From a virus: a DNA stretch of 60,824 bases. The stretch lies in the IMG/VR virus record IMGVR_UViG_3300045738_001878, positions 1 to 60,824 of that record; one strand, given 5' to 3'. Shown here piece after piece: positions 14,401 to 58,358 of this stretch. Below the pieces are notes generated by a model, which saw only the letters and a list, made by a program, of their open reading frames with translations, had not been told where the DNA came from and did not search any database. Numbering within the stretch: the first letter of the stretch is position 1; every line of letters begins with the position of its first letter. The position numbers and the translations under genes were made by a program.

Positions 14401-14609
14401 TACTCAGTAATTTACACGAAGACAATTTAGAAATGATTAAACTGTTGAAGCCTGCTACTGGTTCGGTTCTAGCAGGCGAATCAACGGGTGGACAAAAACA
14501 ATCTACTAGGTCTAATACCAAGCCAATAGCCTCTCCAAATTATCACCAATGGAAATTTGGCAAGGCTAATGCGAATGCCAGCAAGCAAGTCATTACGACT
14601 GGTAACTAA
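5412..14609 (+). CDS. Giant tape measure protein
   Basis: At 3065 residues this is the largest gene in the window and sits just upstream of the baseplate genes, as expected for a tape measure that sets tail length and lines the tail tube. The N-terminal 250 residues are helical and charged with Gly-rich linkers. A globular, tail-protein-like region follows (to about 750), then a poly-Gly linker (about 790-800). From about 840 to 1510 come roughly eight hydrophobic repeats of 84 residues. From about 1540 to 2450 come about eleven amphipathic repeats of 80-84 residues carrying W-F/W-G/S motifs (WFWGKSP, GGWFSDSP). The C-terminal 600 residues are Ala/Glu-rich. At about 1.5 angstroms per residue the tail would be near 460 nm, if the protein is mostly helical. 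Hydrophobic segments also fit a role in crossing the host membrane during DNA entry. Confidence 0.93.
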   Translation: MANSLYDSMDRLIGSTDNVVDVVRSMLQSDVGNAQDYHNANKESEKRDKDRDTKLDKIEKHLNDLVKLTGDQKDDAKEYANSIIAATKEAGQKTGGGTTKQTNKIDLGSLDLSKIQLPGGGGKGFDSASLTKAVEGLGNAGDEFDKALSPLSRVASSGLDASRSMNKLLSESMSYQKQMMEDIRTLTDAATTPGSIYTKDLAAEAANKSVSAGGGGGGGPTVSAGDIDVDGKELGEQLGVGIEEGVERSTSKLGAVLTGTLLGLAGGGDIFQDLFADAIKGELEFIRGMRAIAFQTQMITGETETLQNEFQKTGKIVAETGQNLTTFQVTYMKNLKRGIKSQKEMVGVTKASLNLATMIGSDVAQTADTFADWHMHMGLTDGQMADVGRGIKDVAMWSGVTGDNLMKAVDASSKFVEQMRSAGTLTAVAAKNIIMIQATAQKLGVGESIQDLLGGLGSSVGLLKDASKETQSIIFLAASKVGRVQDAMYGTVLQTRAGIKDIAEGMEQTFKQATGFEMGEIDLMSAEQKFRANMVLESVTGKGIEEFKRMTDTMGEAGMGYAERMATIDAELLTNITLEEQRALIIKKQNMALSAGLEMSSKLSEAAKGVGTIDEAVAKMRKQAGAGWPDIKEDLIALTKDISPGLAGGIAGEDPNAIASAMAIAAADALKEAGGEDYSQQILAAVQANDLTGVRELQEKMTSAQQKLGVDQATGLDPLSEVAQGVREINESIRGVTGPLIAGIMNILGVAGVIAGYLAIMVVASAVHAGKGALGLVGMGFIQSKMGGGGGGGGGGGGGGATGGAPKGPGKAFGFPKVAKMDFGGMMSSGAQLLKGAVAVAIITAGLVAIAIGIIALSKGLMKITGLSPKEIAVIGATIVGMVVGIGLIALAVEKSAAPLMAMNALKSLAKPMLTGALVLLVIGAGIVALATALIWISSQIMGIAGMDAGTAGKTALNIAVIMMAAGFIAWATLNAAAGLAVLGALAPYATWAVPFMLTGAAAILLIAPAIVALAIAIVWMSKKIMSIGGIDAGEAAKVAGNVAVIMLTAGFIAVATMGAAWGLSLLGAQAGLIAGLAPLALLGALAIMVITPAIVALAVAIVWMSKKIMSIGGINAGEAAKVAGNVAAVMLAAGFIAVATMGAAWGLSLLGAQAGLIAGLAPLALLGALAIMVITPAIVALATAIVWISDAIMGAAGVDAASAAKTMEDVAAVMKAAGFIAIAAGAAFWGLQLLGAQAPIFFAMAPLALLGALAITAISAGIVALAVAIVWISDAIMGAAGVDAASAAKTMEDVAGIMKAAGGIALVAGAAFWGLALLGKQAPIFFAMAPMALLGALAITAISAGIVALATAIVWISDAIMSAAGVDAASAAKTMEDVAGVMKAAGGIALVAGAAFWGLALLGAQAPLLWAMAPLALLGAAAIIAISAPIVALAVAIVWLSQSIMSAAGMDAETAAKVADDVYGLIKAAGKIALMTIAMMPILAGMSAAWLVLWYMIPLMVSGAAAILAIGAPVMLFAVSIVKLGEMLANSVDPSVVDKVVVALEGVGKIVTGIADAMDAIINKIIPLQAEPWFWGQSPLNEIGEAAEPFAKQFIGVARFIQIGIIAPVKKYLNIPEGVATKLGSSLKAVGNIVTGIADAMDAIIKKIIPLQAEPWFWGKSPLQEIGAAAVPFARQFIHVARFIKIGVIEPVKTHLNIPEGVATELGDSLKAIGNIITGIADAMEAIINTMVPLIKEPWFWGKSPLQKVGAAAVPFAAQFVHVANFIKHGVIEPIKTHLGDVGNVESIGATIVAVGEMLSALAPMMDVLIDVIVPLTEGGWFSDSPIENIVDAIPEFSEFFGAIAEFLQDGIMAPIQDNMGDVGAVKGVGETITALASMIGAIPGVMDVLIDEIVPLTEGGWFSDSPIEKIAGIQDEFKEFFQGVAEFLRYGIVSPIQTYFPDPGAVTGAATTIVALGQMVSVIPAMMDEIIYGLVPIIKGGWFSKAPADQLSSEIRDKFKVFFWAVARFLNDGIIAPISDQFPDPGKVSSTANIIVALGKMVSVIPGMMDDIIYGLIPIVEGSGWWFSKAPADKLSAEIRDKFKDFFFAVAEFLRYGIINPVQAFFPDPGEVGSTADTIVALARMVGVIPGMMDAIVWNLLPLVGGGWWGMFGGNPSEKILENLDKFKSFFWAVAEFLRYGIINPIQVFFPNPEEVTAAAASLAGMASVVEMIPPFLDTITTSISSLIDGWWWSSPIENMEDDIGTFSKYFKSIATMLGEGIINPIKAYFPKPDELKEIVQQLAGMMVVVAMLPKFLSMLSEKMTELLEGGWWNRFKEGIKVDMFASYFRGIADTLNWGIIQPIQLLPESSAIQEAAARIVALGELVSIMPGFMSLLSEKMEELWDGNWWATEWKTELFGNYWAGLASVLNDGILEPIKLLPESAAIQEAAAKIEALADVMGNLASMLEKLAIVMDQIQSGKFDDMGGVADKINALLAELAKINVGAGAGAGGGGAGAATVAAGGTYQHDSRSHGEILADLEAGAGPGDVQAMSDASPVSGAFGQSLEAGNEELKKTIQSPGSPVSKAVDKYVGLLTGSVVGMGDKIVYGTEAGKAERATAKQAVEAERLAGTMSASLFEDGVEQFGEDFKGASEKAEGSIVEDMAAAKKSMLGIKEAIEDAAGVTTKEAAKEAEEKALEGVKATESYKDAEKRLFGSQLNPDGSVGPPLPGTDKPTFSEDITSAAKQMEEKGVGPSQKASPKMEEALAGLGDAERLRILGNKKGEGAKLDTTNRAILDADLAQEEERNTMAGFDQLPRGKGYGGKPKPVNPWTERNDYMRGGGPEVWTDLNAKLRQMSEDGATPQELIAYQEKHAAGIRSRRDEVESGQGPHGGPTQESMNTGISPTRTVRSFDQGGEFLTSGAELILVGEGGAERVRIEPANLSSSLLNLPSMLRDASTGNAGGAASTEVNPAPLADVHERVKQKYATEGGANKAQTGDMAKIAAAGDRQCQLLSNLHEDNLEMIKLLKPATGSVLAGESTGGQKQSTRSNTKPIASPNYHQWKFGKANANASKQVITTGN
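7930..9960 (+). repeat. 252-base in-frame repeats, about 8 copies, in the tape measure gene
   Basis: The element ATTGTKG (start of IVALA...) recurs at 8190, 8442, 8694, 8946, 9198, 9450 and 9702, exactly 252 bases (84 codons) apart. Some neighbouring units, such as those near 8500 and 8750, are almost identical in DNA, which points to recent duplication or conversion. Confidence 0.9.
10050..12720 (+). repeat. About 246-252-base in-frame repeats, about 11 copies, in the tape measure gene
   Basis: The units share a short hydrophobic helix, a Trp/Gly loop (WFWGKSP, WFSDSP, WWFSKAP) and an F-x-x-x-A-x-F-L helix. The first three are 249 bases apart (marker at 10106, 10355, 10604). Later copies are more diverged and slightly different in length. 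Confidence 0.8.
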
Positions 14610-25209: not shown

Positions 25210-25500
25210 ATGAAAAAGTCTTTTATTGTAACTCGGTATTACGACCCTGATACAAAAACATCACAGAAAGTAATTTTTGTAGATGATGAATTATTTGATT
25301 GGGGGATAGAAGAAGAAGCCCTGGAGCAAGCTCGAAAGTTCTCCAAGAACGATGAGGGCATTCAAACCGCTATTCACGGTGACATTCAAAAATACTTCCT
25401 CGACAGCCTGTCCGAATTTTTAGGACACACAATTACATTAAAGGAAGTTAATGAAGCCATTGAAAATGGCTTTATAGAATGCAAAAATGATACTAATTGA
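25210..25500 (+). CDS. Small unknown protein
   Basis: The 96-residue protein is charged and contains TRYYDPDTKTSQKVIFVDDE followed by a helical region (EEEALEQARKFSK) and an FLDSLSEFLGH helix. No motif is recognised. It overlaps the SET-domain gene by 14 bases, so the two probably share a transcript. AGAGG lies about 10 bases before the ATG. Confidence 0.65.
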   Translation: MKKSFIVTRYYDPDTKTSQKVIFVDDELFDWGIEEEALEQARKFSKNDEGIQTAIHGDIQKYFLDSLSEFLGHTITLKEVNEAIENGFIECKNDTN

Positions 25501-26014
25501 AGAAACCGATAATAGATTCTATTTAAAAAAATCTGGTTTGAAGGACGCTGGAACAGGCGTTTTCGCAAAAGGATCAATCAAAGCAGGTGAATATTTGGAG
25601 GTTATAGGGGTGGCGGTTAAAATCGGATCGCCAGCCGCCAAATGTACCACATGGGCGCAACATTACAAATTTGCCGCCAAAGATAAAAATTTTGATCGAC
25701 ACATCATCCCTCTGGGATATGCGGCAATCATTAACCATACAAGCGACCAAACCCTACAGAATGTAGAGATTAGGTGCTTAAAGAGCATATCTAAGCGCAA
25801 CACTGCTGCTGGCAACATGGTTTATTATTTTATTCGGGATGTTGAAAAAGATGAAGAAATTCTAGGGAACTATGGAGAGGTGGTGCAGAGCAAGATTGAT
25901 TGGGTCGAAGAGAATGTGGGTTTCAATCACGAAGAATGGAAAACCTTTTTGTCTCATGACCTATATAACTTAGGAGTGTTGTCCAAACAAATGAACATCT
26001 ACAAGGAGTCGTAA
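25487..26014 (+). CDS. SET-domain protein (putative protein lysine methyltransferase)
   Basis: The protein has 175 residues. Residues about 12-35 contain GTGVFAKGSIKAGEYL, the SET N-terminal strand pattern. Near residue 85 is AAIINHTSD followed by NVEI, matching the NH motif that helps hold S-adenosylmethionine. Near residue 122 is FIRDVEKDEEILGNYGE, matching the GEEL..Y motif. These are the defining core of the SET fold, which methylates lysines on proteins. Its first 14 bases overlap the small gene at 25210-25500, and the fibre-like gene at 26016 follows 1 base after its stop. The substrate could be a host or virion protein. The fold is well supported; activity is inferred. Confidence 0.75.
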   Translation: MILIEETDNRFYLKKSGLKDAGTGVFAKGSIKAGEYLEVIGVAVKIGSPAAKCTTWAQHYKFAAKDKNFDRHIIPLGYAAIINHTSDQTLQNVEIRCLKSISKRNTAAGNMVYYFIRDVEKDEEILGNYGEVVQSKIDWVEENVGFNHEEWKTFLSHDLYNLGVLSKQMNIYKES

Positions 26015-27417: not shown

Positions 27418-27957
27418 CTAAAGCAAATCATAAACATACGACCAGCGGTCATCATCTTTGTGTTGATAATTTTCTACCTCACGAAGATACTTGAATAGAC
27501 CATCCCAACTTCCAAAACGCTTGGTATTAAATCCCCAATACCAAAATGGAACATTATATCTGCCTTCTGGACAAACTAATAAAGTAGGGTTTTTATTATC
27601 TACACTATCGATAATCTCGTGATGAGTTCCCGTAGTTGCTATTCCTTTGGGCAAATAAGCTATTAGAAAGTCACTATGACTCACCCATGTCAAGTCTTTC
27701 CTGACAAATTTATGAGCAATTCCCTCTAGAGTTTTATCAACTTCAGGTATGATGGCGTCCAAACCACCCGCAATTCCTTCTTCTCTTGCAGCATTTAGAA
27801 TTTCAGCCCATTGCTGTTTAGGGTCTGAAAACGGGTCTAATAAGTCTACCCCAAATTCCTCGACTAATACCTTTATAGGTATGTCTCTCCAATCATCGTT
27901 GGTGCTATGCTCAATAGGGCCACTCAAGTAACATCTTTTTCCCTGTAGAACAGACAT
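27418..27957 (-). CDS. Nucleoside 2-deoxyribosyltransferase-like protein
   Basis: The protein has 179 residues on the reverse strand. It begins RCYLSGPIEH, the usual start of the nucleoside 2-deoxyribosyltransferase superfamily. A central SDFLIAYLPKGIATTGTHHEI follows the family's D-x-x-I/V-x-x-L/Y pattern, with TTGTHHEI in place of GTxxE. The family cleaves or swaps the base of a nucleotide and some members act in nucleotide salvage or hydrolysis. It is a lone reverse-strand gene between forward fibre genes, with its own AGAGTGAGAGGTG leader. The exact substrate is unknown. Confidence 0.65.
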   Translation of the reverse strand: MSVLQGKRCYLSGPIEHSTNDDWRDIPIKVLVEEFGVDLLDPFSDPKQQWAEILNAAREEGIAGGLDAIIPEVDKTLEGIAHKFVRKDLTWVSHSDFLIAYLPKGIATTGTHHEIIDSVDNKNPTLLVCPEGRYNVPFWYWGFNTKRFGSWDGLFKYLREVENYQHKDDDRWSYVYDLL

Positions 27958-37406: not shown

Positions 37407-37988
37407 ATGAGCGTATTTCAAGTAAATCTAAACAACGTAGAGCAAGGGCTTCTAGACAAGCACCCTACAACTGGTGTTCAAAATGCCATATCGTCGCAGC
37501 GAAATGTGTATGTCATGGGTCCGAATCATATCAATCGTCTACTGAGCGACGGCGAACAATTCACAGACTGCAACTATTGGAAGCGATTTGCATATCCACA
37601 AGTTTCACTAGCAGAAGCTATTGTAAATGTCATAACTGATGACGGTAGCGTATACAGCGATGTTGAGTCGGAAAATACGTATCCGAAGGTATACGACATC
37701 ACTGCTACTGCTGGGACCACATATGCAGCCAACCAAGCAGACATTCTTGGTGACACTAGTGGACACGCTGTGTTCGCACAAATTACCAATACTACTGCTT
37801 CTGGTTCTCTGAAGGTAAAACTAAACGGAATAGCAGATGGTATCTTCGACCTAGGATTTGGCGAGACTCAGGTATTTAACTCTGGCGATCTTTCGATTAG
37901 CATGATCGAAATCGACAACAGTACATCGGGCAACCCGACAAGCACTGTTCAAATCATCGTTTCTGTTCGCTCTATATGCAACAGTTAA
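37407..37988 (+). CDS. Putative abundant virion protein, paralogue 1
   Basis: The 193-residue protein starts SVFQVNLNN and contains FTDCNYWKRFAYPQVSL, then strand-rich VYDITATAGT and VKLNGIADGIFDLGFGETQV, ending VQIIVSVRSIC. It is about half identical to the gene 700 bases downstream. Both have their own promoter and an identical rho-independent terminator, so each is expressed alone and strongly, as is typical of abundant virion proteins. No family is recognised; decoration or head-fibre protein is a guess. Confidence 0.65.
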   Translation: MSVFQVNLNNVEQGLLDKHPTTGVQNAISSQRNVYVMGPNHINRLLSDGEQFTDCNYWKRFAYPQVSLAEAIVNVITDDGSVYSDVESENTYPKVYDITATAGTTYAANQADILGDTSGHAVFAQITNTTASGSLKVKLNGIADGIFDLGFGETQVFNSGDLSISMIEIDNSTSGNPTSTVQIIVSVRSICNS

Positions 37989-38004
37989 GTTGTTTCTGAC
38001 GAAA

Positions 38005-38039
38005 TAAAAAAAACCCCGCCCTCACGGGCGGGGTTTTTT
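38005..38039 (+). terminator. Rho-independent terminator after paralogue 1
   Basis: An 8-bp stem CCCCGCCC (38014-38021)/GGGCGGGG (38026-38033) with TCAC loop is followed by six T. The same stem and loop follows paralogue 2. Confidence 0.9.
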
Positions 38040-38049
38040 GTTTCTACAG

Positions 38050-38105
38050 TTCTATATATTATTGAAGACAAAGGCCAGAGAGATATATCCCTCAAGGAGA
38101 ACATA
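38050..38105 (+). promoter_or_regulatory. Promoter box and leader of the second paralogue
   Basis: TTCTATATAT (38050-38059) and TTGAAGACAAAGGCC match the first paralogue's leader closely. TTGA/TCAA pairing is shorter here, and AAGGAG lies at about 38094-38099 before the ATG at 38106. Confidence 0.5.
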
Positions 38106-38681
38106 ATGAGCGTATTTCAAGTAAATCTAAACAACACGGGGCAGGGGCTTCTTGACCAAGTTCATCAGACCACATCAGTACAGAGAACTATCTATGCTAT
38201 GGGTCCGGGTGGCGTAAGTCGCAAGCTAACAGACGGAGAACAATTCACAGATTGCAACTATTGGAAGCGATTTGCATATCCACAAGTTTCACTAGAAGAT
38301 GCTATTGTAGATGTGGTAACTGATGATGGCAGCGTATACAGCGATCTTGCTGTGGAAAATACATTTCCTAAAGTATACGATGTTACCGTAGACGCCAGTA
38401 GTACATATACATTGGCGACCAACATAGTAGATATTCTTGGTGACACTGGTGGACACGCTGTGTTCGCACAAATTACCAATACTACTGTCGCCGCTTCCGA
38501 CAAGAACGTAAAAGTTAAATTAAACGGATTGGCAGATAGTATTTTCGATCTAGCCAGTGGTGACACCCAGGTATTCAATGCTGGTGAACTAGCGATCACT
38601 CTAATTGAATTCGCAGATAATGGGTCCGAAGAACAAACCATTCAGATCGTTCTTTCAGTTCGCTCTTTGTGCGCTAGCTAA
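38106..38681 (+). CDS. Putative abundant virion protein, paralogue 2
   Basis: The 191-residue protein starts SVFQVNLNN and keeps the QFTDCNYWKRFAYPQVSL core, with the C-terminal VKLNGLADSIFDLASGDTQV and IVLSVRSLC. N-terminal residues 20-60 and the linker near 100 differ most from paralogue 1. The gene arose by tandem duplication, including its leader and terminator. The reason for two versions is unknown. Confidence 0.65.
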   Translation: MSVFQVNLNNTGQGLLDQVHQTTSVQRTIYAMGPGGVSRKLTDGEQFTDCNYWKRFAYPQVSLEDAIVDVVTDDGSVYSDLAVENTFPKVYDVTVDASSTYTLATNIVDILGDTGGHAVFAQITNTTVAASDKNVKVKLNGLADSIFDLASGDTQVFNAGELAITLIEFADNGSEEQTIQIVLSVRSLCAS

Positions 38682-38709
38682 CCCAAGTTTGTTTATAATG
38701 ACATAAATG

Positions 38710-38737
38710 AACCCCGCCCTCACGGGCGGGGTTTTAT
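38710..38737 (+). terminator. Rho-independent terminator, shared by convergent genes
   Basis: The stem CCCCGCCC (38712-38719)/GGGCGGGG (38724-38731) with TCAC loop is followed by TTTTATTT. It ends paralogue 2 and, read on the reverse strand, closes the beta-oxidation operon, whose last stop lies at 38738. Confidence 0.85.
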
Positions 38738-39916
38738 TTATTCGCACTTCTTTAAAAGGGTGGCTAACCCCTGTCCCATTCCTACGCACATTGTAGAAAT
38801 CCCTAAACTTTTTTCTTCTTCATGCATTAAATGAAATAAAGTGGTAGTTATTCTTGCCCCAGAGCATCCTAATGGGTGGCCTAACGCTATCGCTCCTCCC
38901 TTAAGATTAACCTTAGTATCAATTTCATTTATCAAATCTAAACCATCTAAACAAGCTAATACCTGTATTGAAAAAGCTTCATTTAATTCTATCAATTCTA
39001 TATCTTCAAGATTATAATTTTCTCCGCTAATATCAGGCACAGATTTTGATAAAAGCTCTGTGACGGCTGAAATGGGAGCTAAACCCATCACAGATGGGGA
39101 TACTCCTGTTTTAGAAAAACCTTTTATTTCTATTAATCTGTCCTTAGAAAAACCTTTTTCTAAAGCAAGTTCTTTTTCCATAATCAATAAGGCAGCAGCC
39201 CCATCTGAAATTGCTGACGAATTTCCTGCTGTCACTGTTCCTTGGGGGTTGAAAACAGGATTAAGATTGCCTAATTGGTCTATACTTGTATTATTTCTTA
39301 CTGGTTCGTCTACCTCAGCGTTGATATAAGCCCCTGAGACGCTGTGTGCGGGCGTCGGGACGGTTTCGCTGCTCCAATTAGCTTGTGAGGCCAATACGTG
39401 CGATCTAAGGGCAAATTCATCTTGTTCCCTTCTGCTTATTCCGGTGACAACAGACAGATACTCCGCAGTATATCCCATTACTTGAGATGCCCTTGATGAT
39501 GTCAAACAATATTCAGGATTTTCGTCATATTCGCAATCCATAGGGATATGTCCCATATGTTCAATTCCACCACACACATAACAATTACCCTCTCCAATCA
39601 TTATTTGTCGAGCGGCGTCATTTATTGCTTCTAAAGAAGAACCACATAACAAATTAATTGTCTTTGCGGTTGTTTCAACAGGCAGTTCTGCCCCTAAAGA
39701 AGCAAATCTGGCTATATTAAATCCTTGTTCCTTTTGTTGATTTACACAACCAAAAATAACTTCATTAACATCGCTTTTAGATATGTTTTCGTTTCTTTCA
39801 AAAATTGAATTGATTACATGTGTGCTAAGTTTTTCAGCACGTATATTTCTATAAATTCCATTTTTAGATTTGCCCATAGGGGTTCTAACGGCATCTACAA
39901 TTACTGGTATTTTCAT
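38738..39916 (-). CDS. fadA: 3-ketoacyl-CoA thiolase, FadA type
   Basis: The 392-residue protein closely follows E. coli FadA. Nucleophile Cys91 sits in INLLCGSSLEAINDAAR, His347 in GGAIALGHPLGCSGAR and Cys377 in CVGMGQG, with NEAF near 312. Thiolase cleaves 3-ketoacyl-CoA with CoA to acetyl-CoA plus a shortened acyl-CoA, the last step of the beta-oxidation cycle. Its ATG overlaps the stop of the FadB-like gene (TAATG), so translation is probably coupled. All motifs are intact and no frameshift is seen. Thiolases can also run in reverse, so acetoacetyl-CoA synthesis is possible, but the partner genes favour degradation. Confidence 0.96.
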   Translation of the reverse strand: MKIPVIVDAVRTPMGKSKNGIYRNIRAEKLSTHVINSIFERNENISKSDVNEVIFGCVNQQKEQGFNIARFASLGAELPVETTAKTINLLCGSSLEAINDAARQIMIGEGNCYVCGGIEHMGHIPMDCEYDENPEYCLTSSRASQVMGYTAEYLSVVTGISRREQDEFALRSHVLASQANWSSETVPTPAHSVSGAYINAEVDEPVRNNTSIDQLGNLNPVFNPQGTVTAGNSSAISDGAAALLIMEKELALEKGFSKDRLIEIKGFSKTGVSPSVMGLAPISAVTELLSKSVPDISGENYNLEDIELIELNEAFSIQVLACLDGLDLINEIDTKVNLKGGAIALGHPLGCSGARITTTLFHLMHEEEKSLGISTMCVGMGQGLATLLKKCE

Positions 39917-41874
39917 TAAACAAGTCCCTCTTTATAAGGTGGATATCCGGTTCCAAATATCATTGCCATGTTTATCTCATAAGGCTCGTCAACTATTTTT
40001 TCGTCTAATATCATCTTCGCTTCTTTTTTCATGACCGACATTAATCTTTCTTCCACATCTACAGGAGCCGGGCGGACCTGCCCAGAGTCAGAAAATTTTC
40101 CTTTTCTTTTTGTACCTTTCCAACTATAAAATCCCGCACCTGTTTTTTGTCCTAGGGTGTTGTTTTCATAAAGTTGTTTGCAAAAACTGTCTTCTGGGCT
40201 TTTGATATAATCGTATTCTTCAACCATGCTATTAGAGGCATGTACCATTACATCAATTCCAACGAGGTCGGACAATTCCGCCGGACCCATTGGCCATCCA
40301 AAATCTTTCATTACTTTGTCTATATGTTCAAAGTCTATCCCCGAAGAGATCATATGATCGAATTCAACTAGGTAAGGCATTAGCACTCTATTCACAACAA
40401 ATCCTGCACAGTCGTTGCATACTAGAGGGGTCTTGCCCATTGCTATCGCCAGAGAACATAATATTCCCACTGTCCCGTCGCTGGTATCTTTCCCTTTTAC
40501 AATTTCTACAAGTGGCATTTTTGAAACAGGGTTAAAGAAATGCATGCCGCCAACCCTAGTTGCATTAAGTCCTTCTTTCAAATCATCTATTTTAAATGTA
40601 GAAGTATTTGTTGCAAAAACAGTTTCTTCCGTTGCGTAAGAAGCGGATTCACGAAGAACTCTTTTCTTTAGATTTATATCTTCGGGGACTGCTTCAATAA
40701 CCACATCGGCATTGCGGACAGCTTCTTCCAAATTGGTAGTTTCTTCAATTAAGTCCATTACTCTGCTGCATTCATTTATTGTGATATACCCCTTGCTAAC
40801 TTTGCTCATTAAGTAATCACGATTAGACTTTGTGGATTTTTCAATTTGACTGTCGTCTGGATCGTAAAGAGAAACTTTGATATTTGCTTTATTGGCGATT
40901 CCAAAAGCAATTCCACCTCCCATTACACCTGCCCCCAACACGGCTACTTTATTAATAGAAGAAGCCGATCTTGCATATGAAGCAGCCTTGGATTTTAGTT
41001 TTCTTTCACCAAAGAATATGTTGATGAGATTTCTAGAAACATCTGTTTTTGATAATTCGACAAAGGCTGTTTGTTCGTAAGTTAAAGCTTCATCTCTTTC
41101 CATTTTTCTACAAGTTTCTATTACTTCTAATGCTTTAATAGGTGCGGGGTAATTGCTCCCCGCCTTTTTAGAAACTGTTACTTTGGCAAATTTAAAAGTC
41201 ATCATCGCTTCAATCATGCCAAGTTTGATTGGGCTGGTTTTTTTATTTCTTCTTTTTTCTATTTCATTTCTTAACCCCTCAATTGTTTCAATAGCCACTT
41301 CTTCAAAGTTTGCATCTTTTTCTGCAATTGCATCAACAAGTCCCATTTTCAAAGCTTCTTTTGCTCTTAAAGTTCTTCCTGAACAAATAAGATCAATTGC
41401 ATTATCTGCACCAATGAGTCTTGGAAGTCTAGTAGTTCCTCCCCACGCCGGGAGTATTCCTAATTTGACTTCAGGGAGAGCAACCTGTGCTTGAGGTTCA
41501 GCCATTCGTCCCGAACATGCTAAGGCTATTTCAAGTCCTCCTCCCATTGCTGTTCCATTTATCCAAGCCAAAGTGGGGATCGGCATGTCTTCAATTTTAT
41601 TGAATACTTCTTGTCCTGACTTCACCACCTCTATTATTGCATCGTCGCTTTCTTGGCTCACAGCGACTAATTCTTTTACATCTGCTCCAGCGATGAATGA
41701 AGTTTTTCTACTTGCAAATACAATCCCTTTGTGATCTGCGTTTATGTTTCCCAATATATCATTGAGTTCGTCCATAGAACTTCGATCAAACGTATTAACG
41801 CTTTTTCCTGGTGAGTTAAAATATACAAATAAGATTCCATCTTTGATCTCAGTTTCAAAATTTTTATAACCCAT
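39916..41874 (-). CDS. Bifunctional enoyl-CoA hydratase / 3-hydroxyacyl-CoA dehydrogenase, FadB/FadJ type
   Basis: The 652-residue protein has an N-terminal crotonase domain and a C-terminal dehydrogenase. Residues 106-120 INGTAMGGGLEIALAC and 134-142 LPEVKLGIL carry the two catalytic glutamates, E115 and E135. At about 314-320 GAGVMGG starts the NAD-binding fold, and HFFNPVSKMPLVEIVKG holds the catalytic His445. FVVNRVLMPYL and GWPMGP are typical of the C-domain. It hydrates trans-2-enoyl-CoA and oxidises the 3-hydroxyacyl-CoA to 3-ketoacyl-CoA. The gene is 9 bases from the upstream acyl-CoA dehydrogenase stop and overlaps fadA by 1 base. It is somewhat shorter than E. coli FadB (729), mainly in the C-terminal part. 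FadB and FadJ cannot be told apart with confidence. Confidence 0.95.
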   Translation of the reverse strand: MGYKNFETEIKDGILFVYFNSPGKSVNTFDRSSMDELNDILGNINADHKGIVFASRKTSFIAGADVKELVAVSQESDDAIIEVVKSGQEVFNKIEDMPIPTLAWINGTAMGGGLEIALACSGRMAEPQAQVALPEVKLGILPAWGGTTRLPRLIGADNAIDLICSGRTLRAKEALKMGLVDAIAEKDANFEEVAIETIEGLRNEIEKRRNKKTSPIKLGMIEAMMTFKFAKVTVSKKAGSNYPAPIKALEVIETCRKMERDEALTYEQTAFVELSKTDVSRNLINIFFGERKLKSKAASYARSASSINKVAVLGAGVMGGGIAFGIANKANIKVSLYDPDDSQIEKSTKSNRDYLMSKVSKGYITINECSRVMDLIEETTNLEEAVRNADVVIEAVPEDINLKKRVLRESASYATEETVFATNTSTFKIDDLKEGLNATRVGGMHFFNPVSKMPLVEIVKGKDTSDGTVGILCSLAIAMGKTPLVCNDCAGFVVNRVLMPYLVEFDHMISSGIDFEHIDKVMKDFGWPMGPAELSDLVGIDVMVHASNSMVEEYDYIKSPEDSFCKQLYENNTLGQKTGAGFYSWKGTKRKGKFSDSGQVRPAPVDVEERLMSVMKKEAKMILDEKIVDEPYEINMAMIFGTGYPPYKEGLV

Positions 41875-41883
41875 TTTTTGTCC

Positions 41884-43803
41884 TTATTGTTTGTAGTTCA
41901 TTAATATTGTGCCTAAAGTTGATTTTGGTCCCAAGTTGGAACAAACAAAGTCTTCATCGCTAAGCTTCTCGCCAAGTTTGACTGATTTTCTTATTTGATG
42001 GTCATTAGGATGCTTTCCGAGTATCTCATTTTTTAAATTGTCACAAGCAACATCAGCGATTTGCTCAGTGATTTCATCATAATGTGTTGCTGTGTATCCT
42101 AATGTTGCCAACATGGTAATTAAATTTTGTATCTTATTAGACAAGAGCGACATCCTACATTGTTTATCCGCTAAACGAAGTTGGTATCTTCTCATTAATG
42201 AGCTTATTTCAGATGCAACCTTTTGTAGATTCTTAATTGCAAAGTCGGCATGGTTTTTAAGTTGTGGCGGGAAAGATTGATCATCAAATAATGTGGCAGA
42301 TTTAGGGTATAACTTTTCTTTAAAAAGCCACTTAGCATAAGGCAAAAACACTTTGTAATTTTTAATCACATCAATAGGAGACGGCTTCTTAATGCCAGCT
42401 TCCATCATTGCTTTGCCAATAGGTTCAAAATATTTAACTCCATGCTCTTTCACCAGCGATTTGAAAAATGCCATGTTTAGCATATCGCCCTCGCCCTCAT
42501 AAATCAATGGAGCTAAAAACTCATGAATATTATCTCCTATTAAGTGTCCATGTAAAAATGAACGGCCACCATGTGTTTTCATGCACAGATCAATTGCTGA
42601 TTCTTTTTGTTTCTCTGATCCAAACGTTTTAGCAACAATGCATTCCAACTCGCCTCTGTACCCTTGGTCTATAAGAGAAGAACACCAGTTTACAAGAGAA
42701 TTAGAAGATAAAATATATCCGGCTAATTTGGCGATCCTATTTTGAACTAGTTCTCTTTTAGCGATAGGTTGTCCATAGGTGATTCGGAAATTGGACCAAG
42801 GCAACATAGACCACAACATTACGTTCATACATCCGGCTGCATTTGCGCATAGTGCAATCCGCCCCAGGTTCAATCCGTGATAGGCAATGGTAAGCCCATT
42901 GCCTTTATTCGGTTTGATTAAATTTTCCTTTGGAACTTTGAAATTTTTAAAGACAAGACCATTATTGTTCAATCTAGACAAAGCATAAAGACCATACGTT
43001 TTTAATTGAAAATGGGCGCTTTCTTTTTCAGGCAAGTCTACTATTAGCACTTGTGGTTCATTGTCTATAAGACAAACAAGAGAAATCAATCTTCCACATA
43101 TGGCATTTGTTATAAATAGTTTTTCTCCATTTACGACATAATGATCTCCCTCAAGAGTTGCTGTAGTTTTTAGAGCCGTCATATCAGAACCGGCCCAAGG
43201 TTCTGTGAGAGCAAAAGCCGATAGCTTTTCCCCTGAAGCGAGAAGAGGAAGCCATTTTTCTTTTTGATCTTTGTCCCCAAAAGTTTTAATCGGATCGACT
43301 GCGCCAATGCACCCATGCACAGAAGCTAGTCCAGCCACACTTGGTTCCAACATTGCCATTTTAGATAAAAATGGAGCAAATCTAGAAAAGGAAATAGCTG
43401 GTTTTTCAACTATCCCCTTGATAGATCGTGTTGCCTGAACTGGAGCAATAGGAACTAAAAGGCCAAAATATCCTGCTTTAGATAAATCATTCAATAAATC
43501 TTTGCTTAATTTACCAGTTTCAGAATCATAAAGTGTGTCATTAATTTTATGATCGTTAAGTACCTCGTAACAATCTTTTGTAATTTGTAATTCTTCTTGA
43601 AAAGAGAAATTGAAAAACTCTTTGATGGGAAACTCTCTGTCCCACACTGCACGGTGTACTGGGCTGTGAGAGGTTTTGTACTTTTCCTTAAACAAGTTGT
43701 CTACTTGATCATCCGCTGTATCAACTTTGCCTATGCTTTTAGACTCTTCTTTAGTTTTTCCGCTTAACTCCATTGCGGTTTCAGCAAAAGATTTATTACT
43801 CAT
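41884..43803 (-). CDS. Acyl-CoA dehydrogenase (very-long-chain type)
   Basis: The 639-residue protein has the acyl-CoA dehydrogenase core: FALTEPWAGSDMTAL near 197-211, HYVVNGEKLFITNA at 221-234, and LIYEGEGDM with the catalytic Glu436 following the VLCAD/ACAD9 pattern. Its C-terminal 190 residues add a helical domain as in VLCAD, about the family's length (650). It does the first step of beta-oxidation, oxidising acyl-CoA to trans-2-enoyl-CoA with FAD and passing electrons to electron-transfer flavoprotein, which is not in the window. It is the first gene of the three-gene operon, with AAGAGGGCC before its ATG. E. coli FadE is a larger, different type, so I give no symbol. Confidence 0.93.
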   Translation of the reverse strand: MSNKSFAETAMELSGKTKEESKSIGKVDTADDQVDNLFKEKYKTSHSPVHRAVWDREFPIKEFFNFSFQEELQITKDCYEVLNDHKINDTLYDSETGKLSKDLLNDLSKAGYFGLLVPIAPVQATRSIKGIVEKPAISFSRFAPFLSKMAMLEPSVAGLASVHGCIGAVDPIKTFGDKDQKEKWLPLLASGEKLSAFALTEPWAGSDMTALKTTATLEGDHYVVNGEKLFITNAICGRLISLVCLIDNEPQVLIVDLPEKESAHFQLKTYGLYALSRLNNNGLVFKNFKVPKENLIKPNKGNGLTIAYHGLNLGRIALCANAAGCMNVMLWSMLPWSNFRITYGQPIAKRELVQNRIAKLAGYILSSNSLVNWCSSLIDQGYRGELECIVAKTFGSEKQKESAIDLCMKTHGGRSFLHGHLIGDNIHEFLAPLIYEGEGDMLNMAFFKSLVKEHGVKYFEPIGKAMMEAGIKKPSPIDVIKNYKVFLPYAKWLFKEKLYPKSATLFDDQSFPPQLKNHADFAIKNLQKVASEISSLMRRYQLRLADKQCRMSLLSNKIQNLITMLATLGYTATHYDEITEQIADVACDNLKNEILGKHPNDHQIRKSVKLGEKLSDEDFVCSNLGPKSTLGTILMNYKQ

Positions 43804-43930
43804 GAATTAAGGCCCTCTTAAAGAAACTAACAAATATAAGATAGTTTTATGTCGTTATCAATTTGATAAATTTTTTGTCAACATGGAACTAAATGGGATA
43901 TTTTCTTTTATTATGATTCTATCTTATAAC
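43804..43930. promoter_or_regulatory. Divergent gap between the beta-oxidation operon and the GT9 gene
   Basis: The 127-base gap is AT-rich and must hold the start sites of both directions. Read leftward, AACTATCTTATATTTG lies about 30-45 bases before the acyl-CoA dehydrogenase ATG. Read rightward, CTATCTTATAAC precedes the GT9 ATG at 43931. Both share CTATCTTATA, which may be a promoter element. No operator is recognised. Confidence 0.4.
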
Positions 43931-44902
43931 ATGGCACGCATTATACGCAAACGTGACCCAATAAAAAAGCCTCTTTCTGTAAGAGAATTTCACGAGAAGA
44001 AGAACAAAATTCTAATCTTGCGTGAAACAGGAGGGCTGGGGGATATCTTACTGCATCGGCATATATTCGAAGACTTCAAGCGGGTCATGCCAGATGTAGA
44101 GGTGGTATTCGCTTGTCCAACCAAATACCACGAGGCCGTTGCAGATCATCCTTACGTCAATGAGGTAGTTGATTCCCGAACCGTGAAATATCACGACTAC
44201 ATTGCACATTACAATACCACTAGTGCATGTACTCGACACGAGATGAGACATGTTCCGATGTCGAACAAAAACCGAAGCGACATTTGGGCAAATCACTGTG
44301 GCGTTCTGCTTACTAGACACAACATGCATATCACTCTTGATGAAGAGACTATAAAATTTGGGAAAAAGAAGCTACAGGAGGCTGGACATCGTGGCGATAG
44401 GCCATCTGTGATAATTAACCCCATATCAGCTATGTTGACAAAAGACCTTCAGGATTGGCAAATAGAAGGATTAATTGACGGCTTGCGAGAAAGGGGGATG
44501 TTTGTTATGGCCCTACACTTGTCCCCCATTGATGGCCTGCCATCTAATGTCCCTCAATTATATGGAATTAGAATAAAAGAATGGATGGGGGTATTAAATG
44601 CAGCAGATTATATCATTAGTGTTGATTCTGCTGCCTTTCACTTTGCGGGTGGAATTGGCAAGCCTTTGACGGGCATTTTCACTTTCGCAGACGGTAAGGT
44701 ATACGGTCGTCATTATGATTTCGTTCTAGTACAAAAACATAGAGATGATGGCAATTGGGAATGTGGGCCTTGTTATAACTGGCCAATGTGTCCGAAAGAA
44801 ACCAAGAGTCCAATAAAACCCTGCTGTACAGAAATAACAATTCAAATGATGCTGGATGGCGTAGATAAAATGATAGAGAAGTGGCCGTGGAAAACCAGTT
44901 AA
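43931..44902 (+). CDS. Glycosyltransferase family 9 (heptosyltransferase-like)
   Basis: The start is ATG 43931; an upstream ATG at 43883 would add a hydrophobic leader. The 323-residue protein opens KILILRETGGLGDILLHRHIFEDF, the GT9 nucleotide-sugar loop (GxGD) and helix. The C-half has DYIISVDSAAFHFAGGIGKPLTGIF, the DS/xxH..GKP donor-binding motif. A Cys-rich segment ends it (CGPCYNWPMCPKET). GT9 enzymes move heptose or related sugars in lipopolysaccharide cores or on proteins. The phage form may change the host surface or glycosylate fibres. Lone orientation next to the operon is typical of accessory genes. Confidence 0.8.
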   Translation: MARIIRKRDPIKKPLSVREFHEKKNKILILRETGGLGDILLHRHIFEDFKRVMPDVEVVFACPTKYHEAVADHPYVNEVVDSRTVKYHDYIAHYNTTSACTRHEMRHVPMSNKNRSDIWANHCGVLLTRHNMHITLDEETIKFGKKKLQEAGHRGDRPSVIINPISAMLTKDLQDWQIEGLIDGLRERGMFVMALHLSPIDGLPSNVPQLYGIRIKEWMGVLNAADYIISVDSAAFHFAGGIGKPLTGIFTFADGKVYGRHYDFVLVQKHRDDGNWECGPCYNWPMCPKETKSPIKPCCTEITIQMMLDGVDKMIEKWPWKTS

Positions 44903-45365: not shown

Positions 45366-46382
45366 ATGGCCATTGGATTTGATGCTGGTACATATAATTT
45401 AGTTTGTTGTCGTAGGGACGGAAAAAAGAAAGGCTTCACTCACAAGCGTGAAGTCAACGCATTCATTGAAATGCCAATAGAAAACCGATTCGTCTTCAAT
45501 ATGATGAAAAATGCAGGTGTGCCTCTGATCGAAAGAAAAGAAGCTGGAGTGGCATATGCACTTGGAGAGGCTGCTGTAAATATTGCCTACACAATGAATA
45601 ATGTAGAACTCAAGCGACCTATGAAAGATGGGTGTTTGAACCCAAGAGAAAAATATGCCCAGCAAGTTATGAGCATCATGATGCATAGTTTGCTGGATGA
45701 TCTCGACCATGAAAAAGAACTTCTATATTACTCTGTACCCGCAAACGCAATCAATCAAGAGACAGACGCCGATTATCACGCCAAGATACTTGAAGCTGTT
45801 TTCAATGCATTTGAAGACGAGAATGGGAAAAAAGTAGAAGCTCATCCAATTAATGAAGCTCTAGCTCTTGTGTATGCAGAACTCGAAAGCAAGTCATACA
45901 CAGGCATAGGAATTTCTTTTGGAGCCGGTATGGTAAATCTTTGCTTCTCTATTTTTGGTGCTCCTGCTTTTGAATTTTCTCTAGTAAACAGTGGTGATTG
46001 GATCGATAAGATGGCGGCAAAAGCTACGGGAGAATCTCCCACCTTCATCAATAAGGAAAAGATGAAGTTAGACCTAACCGTTGATTCTGATTCTCTAGTT
46101 CAAAGAGCAATTAAGTCTCAATATGAAATCATGATTCAGAAAACCATTACTGGCATCAAAAAGGGTGTAGAAAAAGCTGGAAACAAGGCTCGTGGTGACA
46201 ACGCAATCGATATTGTTATCGCTGGTGGTACTAGCTCTCCTCCTGGTTTCGAAAAACTCTTTTCCGATGTAATCAAAGAAGCAAATGTCCCAATTGAAAT
46301 TGGAGAGATTATCCAACCTTCTGATCCACTGTATTCGGTGGCCAGAGGATGTTTAGTAGCAGCGGAAGCTGCCGCTCAGTAA
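45366..46382 (+). CDS. Actin-fold ATPase (ParM/MreB/Hsp70 superfamily)
   Basis: The 338-residue protein has the three actin/Hsp70 ATPase motifs in order: phosphate-1 GFDAGTYNLVCC at 4-15, phosphate-2 near 183-195 GISFGAGMVNLCF, and adenosine IVIAGGTSSPPGF near 285-297. Length matches ParM and MreB rather than Hsp70. In phages, actin-like filaments move or centre viral DNA, or organise replication sites. It follows the small acidic gene by one base. Which filament family it belongs to needs a structure comparison. Confidence 0.8.
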   Translation: MAIGFDAGTYNLVCCRRDGKKKGFTHKREVNAFIEMPIENRFVFNMMKNAGVPLIERKEAGVAYALGEAAVNIAYTMNNVELKRPMKDGCLNPREKYAQQVMSIMMHSLLDDLDHEKELLYYSVPANAINQETDADYHAKILEAVFNAFEDENGKKVEAHPINEALALVYAELESKSYTGIGISFGAGMVNLCFSIFGAPAFEFSLVNSGDWIDKMAAKATGESPTFINKEKMKLDLTVDSDSLVQRAIKSQYEIMIQKTITGIKKGVEKAGNKARGDNAIDIVIAGGTSSPPGFEKLFSDVIKEANVPIEIGEIIQPSDPLYSVARGCLVAAEAAAQ

Positions 46383-46833: not shown

Positions 46834-48225
46834 ATGGCTAGCGCAGAAATGGACAAATTATTTAATGACATGTTCAAGGATGTTGATAATGAAATCAACC
46901 AATTCAGGGACAAAATAAACGCTGCGCTCAAGAAAAATGCTGACAGCCTGAATCAGGCAGCTATGCAAGCTATACAGCAAACCATGCAGCAAGCTGGAAT
47001 GGCAGGACAGCCCGGTATGCAAACCGCACCAGGGCAACCCAGCAGACCACAATCTTTACCTTGGCTCAAGCACGGTTTACGTGGATTCCTTCGCAAAATA
47101 TGGCATGGCAATCATCCCGACAATCCTAGTTGGCAAGGATATACAGGGGAACACGTATTGACATTAGAGGAAAATAATTTCCTCATGAATCAGCTTAATG
47201 AAGCCGCTGACATCATAATTAGCGAAGTAGTTCCAGCCGATGTTATTGGGGCATCATTGTCAGGGCAAATTGGCGATATTGAAAAAATCACAATAGATTT
47301 TAGAAATAATTTGAAAACCATCATTAGGACTGCTCTTACACAAGCGGATATTAAAGGACGAAGAGGCTCAGCTACAACAACGCCCTCGCCCTCGCCCACA
47401 TCCACACCTGCCGCCGCAGTTAGTGCTGGGGATATAGACTCAGCAGCAGCAGAAGAAGATGATGACGATGTTGGCCAATTCGAACCTGCGACTGATGTTG
47501 TCCCCGGCGAAGGGGGTGGTGATGATGCAGATGTGCCGGTCTCAACTATCAACAAGGATGTTGTTCAGCAGATAGATTCATCGGAAAACCAAGAAATTGA
47601 TGCGAAAATTGATGCAATGGGTGAAGAATTAAGGGAATTAGTAGATCAGAAAACTGGCAAGATCAAAGTGAAGTCTCGTGGCTTGGCCAGGGCGGCACTA
47701 AAAGGTCTAGGTTTAGAAAATAATGATAAAAATGCTAAAAGGGTATTTGAACGATATGGCTATATCAAGCCAGACGGCCAAGAAGAGGATGGGATACCAG
47801 CAAGAACAGGTGGACGAACGAAACATGTTCCCAAAAAACGCAAAAGTGCTGCAACTACAACAACTACTACTGCTACATCGCCAAAGATAACCAAAGATAA
47901 AGATAAAGAAAAAGATAAAGTAAAGAAAAAGAAAACCGTTATTCAAGGTTCATCTGAACTACACTCTGTGGAGGGAGATGAGAAATTTATTTCCAACACA
48001 CTCGACGGCGATCATGACGATAACTACGAGTTAGAAAGTCGTCGTGCATATGAAGACTTTGTTGCTCGAAATATAATTGAAGGTCTACCACCGAAGTATA
48101 AGTTAAACTTCTTTAGGGAGACTTTGAGTAAGGGCGCTAGAGGCTCGTATGTTCTTCGCCACAAAGTAAGAAACATGCCTATTGAAGAACGCACGAAATA
48201 CTTCAAAGAATTATTGAATTCTTAA
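46834..48225 (+). CDS. Unknown large charged protein
   Basis: The start is ATG 46834; the product has 463 residues. Its N-terminus is a helical segment with a Gln/Ala/Met-rich stretch (residues 45-65). A central part contains the fold LPWLKHGLRGFLRKIWHGNHP and helices to about 180. A Ser/Thr/Pro-rich and acidic linker (180-225) is followed by two basic regions, with repeated Lys (KDKDKEKDKVKKKKT) near 375. The C-terminal 75 residues are a compact helical domain (IEGLPPKYKLNFFRETLSKGA). It has no catalytic motif. Its stop shares TTAA with the convergent GlpX gene. Confidence 0.6.
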   Translation: MASAEMDKLFNDMFKDVDNEINQFRDKINAALKKNADSLNQAAMQAIQQTMQQAGMAGQPGMQTAPGQPSRPQSLPWLKHGLRGFLRKIWHGNHPDNPSWQGYTGEHVLTLEENNFLMNQLNEAADIIISEVVPADVIGASLSGQIGDIEKITIDFRNNLKTIIRTALTQADIKGRRGSATTTPSPSPTSTPAAAVSAGDIDSAAAEEDDDDVGQFEPATDVVPGEGGGDDADVPVSTINKDVVQQIDSSENQEIDAKIDAMGEELRELVDQKTGKIKVKSRGLARAALKGLGLENNDKNAKRVFERYGYIKPDGQEEDGIPARTGGRTKHVPKKRKSAATTTTTTATSPKITKDKDKEKDKVKKKKTVIQGSSELHSVEGDEKFISNTLDGDHDDNYELESRRAYEDFVARNIIEGLPPKYKLNFFRETLSKGARGSYVLRHKVRNMPIEERTKYFKELLNS

Positions 48226-49142
48226 TCACCATGTTCTGTGAATAGATTTCTTACTGTACCACTACCAGATCGCATTGTAATTGAATTGGTAACTGGCCCA
48301 CGCTCTGTAAATCGCACGCCTTTCAATAACTTACCATTTGTAATCCCCGTGCCAGCAAACATCACTTCTCCTGCTGCCAAATCTTCTATCGAAAGAATGC
48401 GGTCATTGGCCGGAGCATAACTTTCTTTATCCACTTCCTGGCACTGTAGAAAACCACCCATGCATTTCATCGCACAAGCCGCTATTACAGCTTCAGGTGC
48501 GCCACCAATACTCCAATACATGTCTACGCCCGAATCTGGCACACAAGCAGCGATACAGGCAGTTACGTCACAATCCGATATAAATTTAATGCGACAACCA
48601 ATCTTTCGCAATTCTTTTACAAGATTCGCAGTACGAGGACGATCTAGCACACAGACAGTGACATGTTGAGGGTCTTTTCCAAGAGCGGCAGCCACCATTC
48701 CAACGTTTGCACTAGCTGGATTTCTAAGGTCAATTTGTGATTTTGATGCTACTACAGGACCAACCGCAATCTTATCCATGTAGAAATATTTTGTTTTGTA
48801 GAGTGCATCCTTCCCAGCAAGCGTGATAACACTCATTGCTTCATATCCTCCCTTTACGGTAGGAGTGGTCCCTTCAATTGGATCAATTGCAATGGAGTAA
48901 CTAGGTGAATCAGTATGACAAAACGCCCCCACTTTCTCGCCCTCGTAAAGGCCAAATGATTCATCTTTTATACCTTCCCCAATGGCTATCTCGGCGGAAA
49001 AGTTTATCTGATCTAGACGTTTGCGCATGGCGTCAGTGGCCGATTTGTCTGCTTCTTCTTTATTGCCACGGCCTACCCATTCGGCTGCGGAAATAGCTCC
49101 CGCTTCTGTTACTCTAACTAAATCAAGATGGTGATTTTTCAT
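48222..49142 (-). CDS. glpX: Class II fructose-1,6-bisphosphatase (GlpX)
   Basis: The 306-residue protein matches GlpX along its length: DLVRVTEAGAISAAEWVGRG at the start, IAIGEGIKDE near 52-61, IAIDPIEGTTPTVKGG near 84-99 (metal-binding DPIEGT), and later SIGGAPEAVIAACAMKCMGG. GlpX removes the 1-phosphate from fructose-1,6-bisphosphate, the key gluconeogenic step, and some relatives also cleave sedoheptulose-1,7-bisphosphate. It overlaps the end of the upstream phage-type gene at 49123-49142 and is convergent with the 46834 gene. It carries carbon from lipid or amino acids to sugar phosphates if active. All motifs are intact. Confidence 0.95.
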   Translation of the reverse strand: MKNHHLDLVRVTEAGAISAAEWVGRGNKEEADKSATDAMRKRLDQINFSAEIAIGEGIKDESFGLYEGEKVGAFCHTDSPSYSIAIDPIEGTTPTVKGGYEAMSVITLAGKDALYKTKYFYMDKIAVGPVVASKSQIDLRNPASANVGMVAAALGKDPQHVTVCVLDRPRTANLVKELRKIGCRIKFISDCDVTACIAACVPDSGVDMYWSIGGAPEAVIAACAMKCMGGFLQCQEVDKESYAPANDRILSIEDLAAGEVMFAGTGITNGKLLKGVRFTERGPVTNSITMRSGSGTVRNLFTEHGD

Positions 49143-57857: not shown

Positions 57858-58358
57858 ATGCATAAAAGAAAATTCATCAAAAGGGAACATATAAAACAAG
57901 GCCGAGAAGAAATTCGAGAAGGAATAGAATATGTTGTCGGCGAGGAAGAATACTCAGCCTGGAAAAAGTTTGCATTCAAAGGCCGCATGGTAGAGATGGC
58001 AATTGCCTTTATGCTAGGAGCGGCTTTCAAAAACGTGGTGGGATCAATTTCAGAAAATCTCATCATGCCTGTTATGACTTTCATTCTTAATAAAACAGGT
58101 ACAAACTGGCGTGAACTTACTGTGACGCCAATTGAAGGAATCGCATTAGAGATAGGGCAATTTTTAGGAGCTTTTGTAGACTTTATTTTAATCTCGATTA
58201 TACTTTATATCCTATACAGGAAAATTTTAGCACCCATATTAGAAGATGATAAGAAAATCAAATGTATTGAAACGGTTCAATGCCCGAATTGCTGTAAGCA
58301 AATTTACTATAAGTGTAAAAGATGTCCTAACTGTACTTCTTGGCTAAATGATGAATAA
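57858..58358 (+). CDS. mscL: MscL-type mechanosensitive channel with C-terminal zinc ribbon
   Basis: The 166-residue protein has a charged N-terminal extension of about 40 residues, then FKGRMVEMAIAFMLGAAFKNVVGSI (TM1; Gly/Ala-rich pore pattern of MscL), IMPVMTFIL, a loop, and FLGAFVDFILISIILYILYRKIL (TM2). It matches MscL. The cytoplasmic helix bundle is replaced by CPNCC...CKRCPNC, a probable zinc ribbon. MscL opens under membrane tension and releases solutes. A phage copy may help during osmotic shock, in lysis, or in host killing. It precedes the kinase-like gene by 12 bases. Confidence 0.85.
   Translation: MHKRKFIKREHIKQGREEIREGIEYVVGEEEYSAWKKFAFKGRMVEMAIAFMLGAAFKNVVGSISENLIMPVMTFILNKTGTNWRELTVTPIEGIALEIGQFLGAFVDFILISIILYILYRKILAPILEDDKKIKCIETVQCPNCCKQIYYKCKRCPNCTSWLNDE

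Follow-up and report, generated by a model that had tools for sequence, protein, structure and literature searches.

Can a phage carry the entire fatty-acid beta-oxidation cycle among its own genes, and what would such a gene set do during infection? This question is raised by a locus in the linear IMG/VR virus record IMGVR_UViG_3300045738_001878, which we analysed over its full length of 60,824 bases (the window). An earlier note, made from the sequence without database searches, had described three reverse-strand genes in it as a complete beta-oxidation operon, coding for an acyl-CoA dehydrogenase (ACAD), a FadB-type multifunctional enzyme and a FadA-type 3-ketoacyl-CoA thiolase. The open reading frames proved to lie exactly where the note had placed them (Table 1), and their Pfam domains cover all four reactions of the cycle. 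The layout is equally as described: the ACAD and FadB genes are 9 bases apart, the FadB and FadA genes are coupled by a TAATG overlap, a terminator hairpin lies on the left and a divergent gap on the right. We additionally found the Shine-Dalgarno-like sequences AAGGA and AGAGGG upstream. A candidate operon promoter (TTGATA-17-TATATT at 43861-43833 on the reverse strand) is weak, as shuffled sequences give as many such sites. We read the operon as a beta-oxidation module that a huge phage encodes, and assign this reading a probability of roughly 70%.

Each of the four reactions is represented by a protein with its catalytic residues, and all residues named beforehand were confirmed, namely Glu436 of ACAD, Glu115, Glu135 and His445 of FadB, and Cys91, His347 and Cys377 of FadA; FadB carries in addition Glu457 beside His445 in its dehydrogenase part. 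The ACAD matched the Pfam domains Acyl-CoA_dh_1, M and N (7e-17, 6e-12 and 2e-8), and its AlphaFold model (pLDDT 74.5) gave very-long-chain acyl-CoA dehydrogenase (VLCAD) and the Bacillus anthracis protein 3owa as top structural matches over about 620-640 columns, nearly the full length. This moderate-confidence model supports a VLCAD/ACAD9-like enzyme with an architecture of about 600 amino acids (aa), a C-terminal helical domain and the catalytic glutamate. FadB is a fusion of hydratase and 3-hydroxyacyl-CoA dehydrogenase (ECH_1 6e-37, 3HCDH_N 2e-52, 3HCDH 2e-27), with FadB (PRK11730) as its top NCBIfam family at 642 bits. Its closest solved relative by sequence is FadB of Pseudomonas fragi (PDB 1wdk, E=9e-139), and a fold search with its AlphaFold model of modest quality (pLDDT 64.3) likewise returned 1wdk_A first. 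FadA matched Thiolase_N and Thiolase_C (3e-66 and 1.5e-36), its closest solved relative is the FadA structure 3goa (E=5e-111), its top NCBIfam family is FadA, and it passes the cut-off of the acetyl-CoA C-acyltransferase subfamily (370 vs. 240.55).

Table 1. Features of the operon and its surroundings in the window.
Feature	Position	Strand	Remarks
Acyl-CoA dehydrogenase (ACAD), beta-oxidation step 1	41884..43803	-	639 aa; first gene of the operon; C-terminal helical domain; Glu436
FadB-type multifunctional enzyme, steps 2 and 3	39916..41874	-	652 aa; enoyl-CoA hydratase and NAD-dependent 3-hydroxyacyl-CoA dehydrogenase
FadA-type 3-ketoacyl-CoA thiolase, step 4	38738..39916	-	392 aa
Divergent intergenic region	43804..43882		79 bp; sigma-70-like site as candidate for the operon
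Terminator hairpin separating FadA (-) from the converging gene 38106-38681 (+)	38709..38734		T-rich on the + side
Left-flank backbone gene S, copy 1	37407..37988	+	193 aa; single copy in nearly all relatives
Terminator hairpin after S copy 1	38008..38039		shares its 20-nt core with the hairpin at 38712-38731
Left-flank backbone gene S, copy 2	38106..38681	+	70% identity with copy 1; no other examined locus has the duplication
Backbone gene on the right flank, with weak similarity to glycosyltransferase 9	43883..44902	+	next to S in relatives
Volactin-family actin homologue	45366..46382	+	lineage marker; 73 IMG/VR contigs hold a relative, and several of them span 200-533 kb (longest 532,729 bases)
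GlpX, class II fructose-1,6-bisphosphatase	48222..49142	-	present in 15 backbone relatives

The surroundings of the operon are those of a huge phage. PHROG families for baseplate wedge, primase and exonuclease were matched in the record, and the window from about 5 to 60 kb is collinear over about 45 kb with LR756511.1, an uncultured phage genome of 595,163 bases, with the gene order kept at 26-63% identity; the backbone thereby falls in with genomes of more than 200 kb. More than 70 contigs with a volactin gene, up to 533 kb long, have their gene order in common with the window as well. The volactin gene is found in LR756511.1 too and seems to belong to the core genes of the lineage; actin of the volactin type has otherwise been reported from haloarchaea (PMC10869688). 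LR756511.1 lacks the operon and has only 54 bp between gene S (551705-551124) and the glycosyltransferase-like gene (551070-550051). The same gap measures 93 bp in L057-L059, which match the window at 71-82% identity here, and 16-142 bp in most other relatives having both flank genes. Because the flank genes are neighbours in the relatives, the operon represents an insertion in a real phage backbone, and the assertion that phage-type genes stand on both sides is thus borne out. A few relatives have larger gaps (1158 bp in L060, 1937 bp in L071), suggesting that the site tolerates cargo. None of 50 whole backbone contigs (7.0 Mb; thiolase was not searched there) matched ACAD, and none gave an above-cut-off match to 3HCDH_N; two weak partial matches lay below the cut-off. 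The insertion adjoins a tandem duplication of S (37407-38733) with an identical 20-nt hairpin core after each copy, for which shuffled sequences gave an expectation of 0.00.

An assembly chimera or contamination, in which a bacterial operon was joined to a phage contig, would explain why no known backbone relative has the operon, and tblastn with the three proteins as queries indeed gave no match in 76 loci surrounding the flank genes. However, both flanks consist of collinear backbone genes that are neighbours in the relatives, and in the trees ACAD and FadB fall in with other phages' genes and with no sampled cell. Codon usage also placed the operon near the phage: its GC content at third codon positions (GC3) of 0.27-0.31 is close to that of the backbone (0.349, standard deviation 0.041), and its codon distance is 0.22-0.30 vs. 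0.217 (standard deviation 0.046), FadA being the most divergent. With the empty site and the collinear flanks we rejected this explanation, which we consider very improbable.

Related genes were detected in 11 further IMG/VR contigs, nine with an ACAD 62-68% identical to that of the window (G001-G009) and two with the dehydrogenase half of FadB (L205 and L207). In G002, G003 and G009, the ACAD gene and a terminase gene are at most about 1 kb apart. FadB is encoded as two separate genes for hydratase plus linker and for dehydrogenase in G004 (161 kb) and G005 (84 kb), and G006 and G008 carry the hydratase part, while no thiolase was found in G001-G009. By blastp (1e-4), these nine contigs have only the operon-related genes and one 180-aa deoxyribosyltransferase-like gene in common with the window. 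ACAD/FadB-type genes thus occur in two unrelated phage lineages. The deoxyribosyltransferase-like gene (27418-27957 in the window) is oriented opposite to its neighbours, and a homologue of 28% identity directly precedes the ACAD gene in the unrelated phage G001 (11419-11967). For unsaturated viral pairs we obtained omega values of 0.04-0.16 (ACAD), 0.15-0.18 (dehydrogenase) and 0.11 (hydratase); such purifying selection indicates that the related genes are kept functional in phages. As neither FadB nor FadA of the window has a close relative, selection on these two is suggested by their intact residues.

Searches and gene trees, as had been proposed, grouped ACAD and FadB with viral sequences. 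The viral ACADs form one clade against 16 cellular sequences (support 100/100), and the viral FadBs, comprising that of the window and the split hydratase and dehydrogenase proteins, form another (100/100) beside three gammaproteobacterial FadBs. The window FadA groups with gammaproteobacterial FadA (96/86) on a long branch, and the branches from viral to cellular sequences are long in the trees. The top cellular identities found were about 55-58% for ACAD, 39-41% for FadB and 47-48% for FadA, far from the identical bacterial operon that an assembly error would imply. The dehydrogenase half in G004 (residue 337, aligned to model position 668) ends where the window FadB ends (residue 651, aligned to 671), out of 717 model positions, and that of G005 aligns like it; this common end point fits one viral ancestor. 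Because ACAD and FadB sit in viral clades common to an unrelated large-phage lineage, the module has probably been resident in phages for a long time and is no recent host scrap. A recent capture from a planctomycete was ruled out by the phage-like GC3 and codon use together with the viral clades.

An alternative that concerns the origin only, and is compatible with the function proposed here, is that the two phage groups took the genes separately from a missing cellular donor, a host lineage with poor sampling. It draws on the limited sampling of cellular FadB and FadA (392 Planctomycetota genomes plus plasmids), and on the differing neighbours of the proteins, gammaproteobacterial FadBA for FadB and FadA but planctomycete sequences, among the cellular ones found, for ACAD. 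A scan of the genomes of 84,980 species for motifs conserved in the viral ACADs returned only three ACAD loci with 49-51% identity, however, and the shared stop of the window FadB and the split viral dehydrogenases also speaks against it; we regard this origin as unlikely. A scan of 386 genomes of the Obscuribacterales phylum for ACAD returned only the one already known.

Several observations weigh against a functional phage module. FadB scores 642 bits against an equivalog cut-off of 870 in NCBIfam and lacks about 45 C-terminal residues of bacterial FadB (query residue 651 aligns to position 671 of the 717-position model), for which reason we label it FadB-type, a divergent viral form. FadA reaches 477 bits against a cut-off of 519. 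The shortening and the two sub-cut-off scores mean that activity and assembly of a FadBA complex are not certain. The thiolase is known in one viral contig only, and dense sampling of cellular FadB and FadA was confined to Planctomycetota, with the addition of plasmid-borne homologues, on which the gammaproteobacterial sampling rests. No genes for an acyl-CoA synthetase or an electron-transfer flavoprotein (ETF) were seen within the window; this means little because the window is a fragment of a genome of probably several hundred kilobases.

The single copy in one contig, its absence from 50 of 50 backbone relatives and the truncated FadB would also suit a mere passenger, i.e., captured host genes with little or no expression and no benefit to the phage. 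We consider this quite improbable, since the catalytic residues are intact and the frames open, the operon spacing and Shine-Dalgarno-like sequences are preserved, and related viral genes are under strong purifying selection across lineages. Moreover, the FadB end is shared with the split viral dehydrogenases and therefore appears old rather than a sign of decay.

Among known systems, the FadBA trifunctional enzymes (P. fragi 1wdk, E. coli fadBA) have the same FadB domain order and catalytic residues, a FadA-type thiolase, and the fadB-fadA order with tight spacing in common with the phage operon. They differ in that the phage FadB is about 45 residues shorter, that the phage proteins are 37-40% (FadB) and 47% (FadA) identical to theirs, that an ACAD gene comes first, and that the operon is phage-borne. 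In Planctomycetota, this ACAD occurs in 14 of 392 genomes and a FadA this close (E<=1e-85) in 11 of 392, nearly the same genomes. Two planctomycete operons (L188/G214 and L189/G439) have the order ACAD-FadB-FadA as in the window, whereas other loci have FadB-FadA-X-ACAD; X and the gene after FadA in L188 read, by eye, as AMP-dependent acyl-CoA synthetases. The ACADs of these operons (also L192 and L199) belong to the same subfamily with 50-55% identity, and up to 58% in another search, but some operons have the synthetase-like gene that is lacking in the phage window, and the phage FadA lies on the gammaproteobacterial branch, with FadB among viral FadBs beside it. The second large-phage lineage (G004 and G005) shares the viral ACAD and FadB clades and the FadB end, and differs by the split FadB, a thiolase that was not found, and an unrelated virion backbone.

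Among other viruses, the lipid genes of giant viruses (Prymnesium kappa virus RF01) also include a virus-encoded ACAD, but hydratase and ketothiolase were not detected there (PMC9270025), whereas the phage operon covers four reactions. The viral fadB gene families of the Pacific Ocean Virome, as cited in PMC10452541, are likewise fadB auxiliary metabolic genes, yet they are families of one gene each and do not form a linked complete module within a phage backbone. The expectation that no standard phage gene set contains the full module held in 50,697 phage records (INPHARED) and the IMG/VR scans. INPHARED matches were rejected as phage relatives, being mostly draft bacterial records or unannotated contigs with less than 48% identity, as judged from record names, sizes and annotations; the bacterial-type matches include "Acinetobacter phage MD-2021a" and Salmonella genome records. 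Single-sequence IMG/VR scans with FadB and FadA as queries yielded none, and the FadA of L208 was rejected as a viral thiolase because it lies at the end of an isolate's prophage record and was taken as bacterial. No other virus with all four reactions was found in the virus records searched, and no phage with a complete module in the open-licence full-text literature, although a report may have escaped us.

Some further genes were recorded on the way. The window encodes a SET-domain protein (25487-26014; PF00856, 3.9e-8), possibly a lysine methyltransferase, an MscL mechanosensitive channel homologue (57858-58358; PF01741, 4.5e-20), a 3065-aa open reading frame in the tail/baseplate gene region (5412-14609) that matched no PHROG family, and, where the record starts on the left (3-1199), a tRNA nucleotidyltransferase-like gene. 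The 161-kb contig G004 (L020, L026 and L027) has an unusually broad metabolic set with genes for ornithine cyclodeaminase-like, aminotransferase III, DDAH-like hydrolase, aldehyde dehydrogenase, GlmS-like, class I aldolase, IMPDH-type and DUF1501 proteins. The DUF1501 and trypsin-like genes of G004 and G006 are suggestive, at most, of a planctomycete host. Near the viral dehydrogenase gene of L205 lies a gene for the iron-sulfur assembly protein SufB (11808-13202; TIGR01980, 733 bits, above cut-off).

With a phage-encoded module as the preferred reading, its function may be pictured as follows. A host acyl-CoA synthetase would produce long-chain acyl-CoA from membrane or storage lipid, which the phage ACAD would oxidise during infection, passing the electrons to the ETF of the host. 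The FadB/FadA-like trifunctional enzyme would then release acetyl-CoA and NADH, and the shortened acyl-CoA would re-enter the cycle. The products would provide energy and carbon for a very large genome and particle, and the phage GlpX perhaps offers a gluconeogenic sink for the acetyl-CoA carbon. A plausible role, as proposed, would be to feed virus production with acetyl-CoA, NADH and reduced flavin; for substrate, flux direction, host and expression of the operon, this picture is what we infer. In terms of auxiliary metabolic genes, the operon is phage-encoded, and a changed host metabolism in infection is putative.

The enzymes could instead belong to a different acyl-CoA pathway (branched-chain amino-acid, dicarboxylic or aromatic), or remodel membranes by trimming fatty acids or signals, rather than run repeated beta-oxidation for energy. 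The ACAD reached no named NCBIfam equivalog at cut-off, and G004 bears other catabolism genes (the first four listed above), both of which would suit such a role. On the other side, the predicted ACAD structure best matches very-long-chain enzymes, FadB and FadA are nearest to the long-chain FadBA complex, and in bacteria, operons with this gene order lie beside a gene that resembles acyl-CoA synthetases. We consider a different route improbable, though less so than a mere passenger.

The broader claim, that huge phages carry and exchange a long-established, virus-specific module for the full spiral, turning host lipid into energy and carbon for the virus, and that no virus found before it has the four reactions together, we hold with about even confidence. 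That unrelated phages of two lineages share these viral clades hints at a trait under selection and not at an accident. If the module is active, phages would draw fuel from the lipids of their hosts, by a carbon route that lies outside current pictures of infection.
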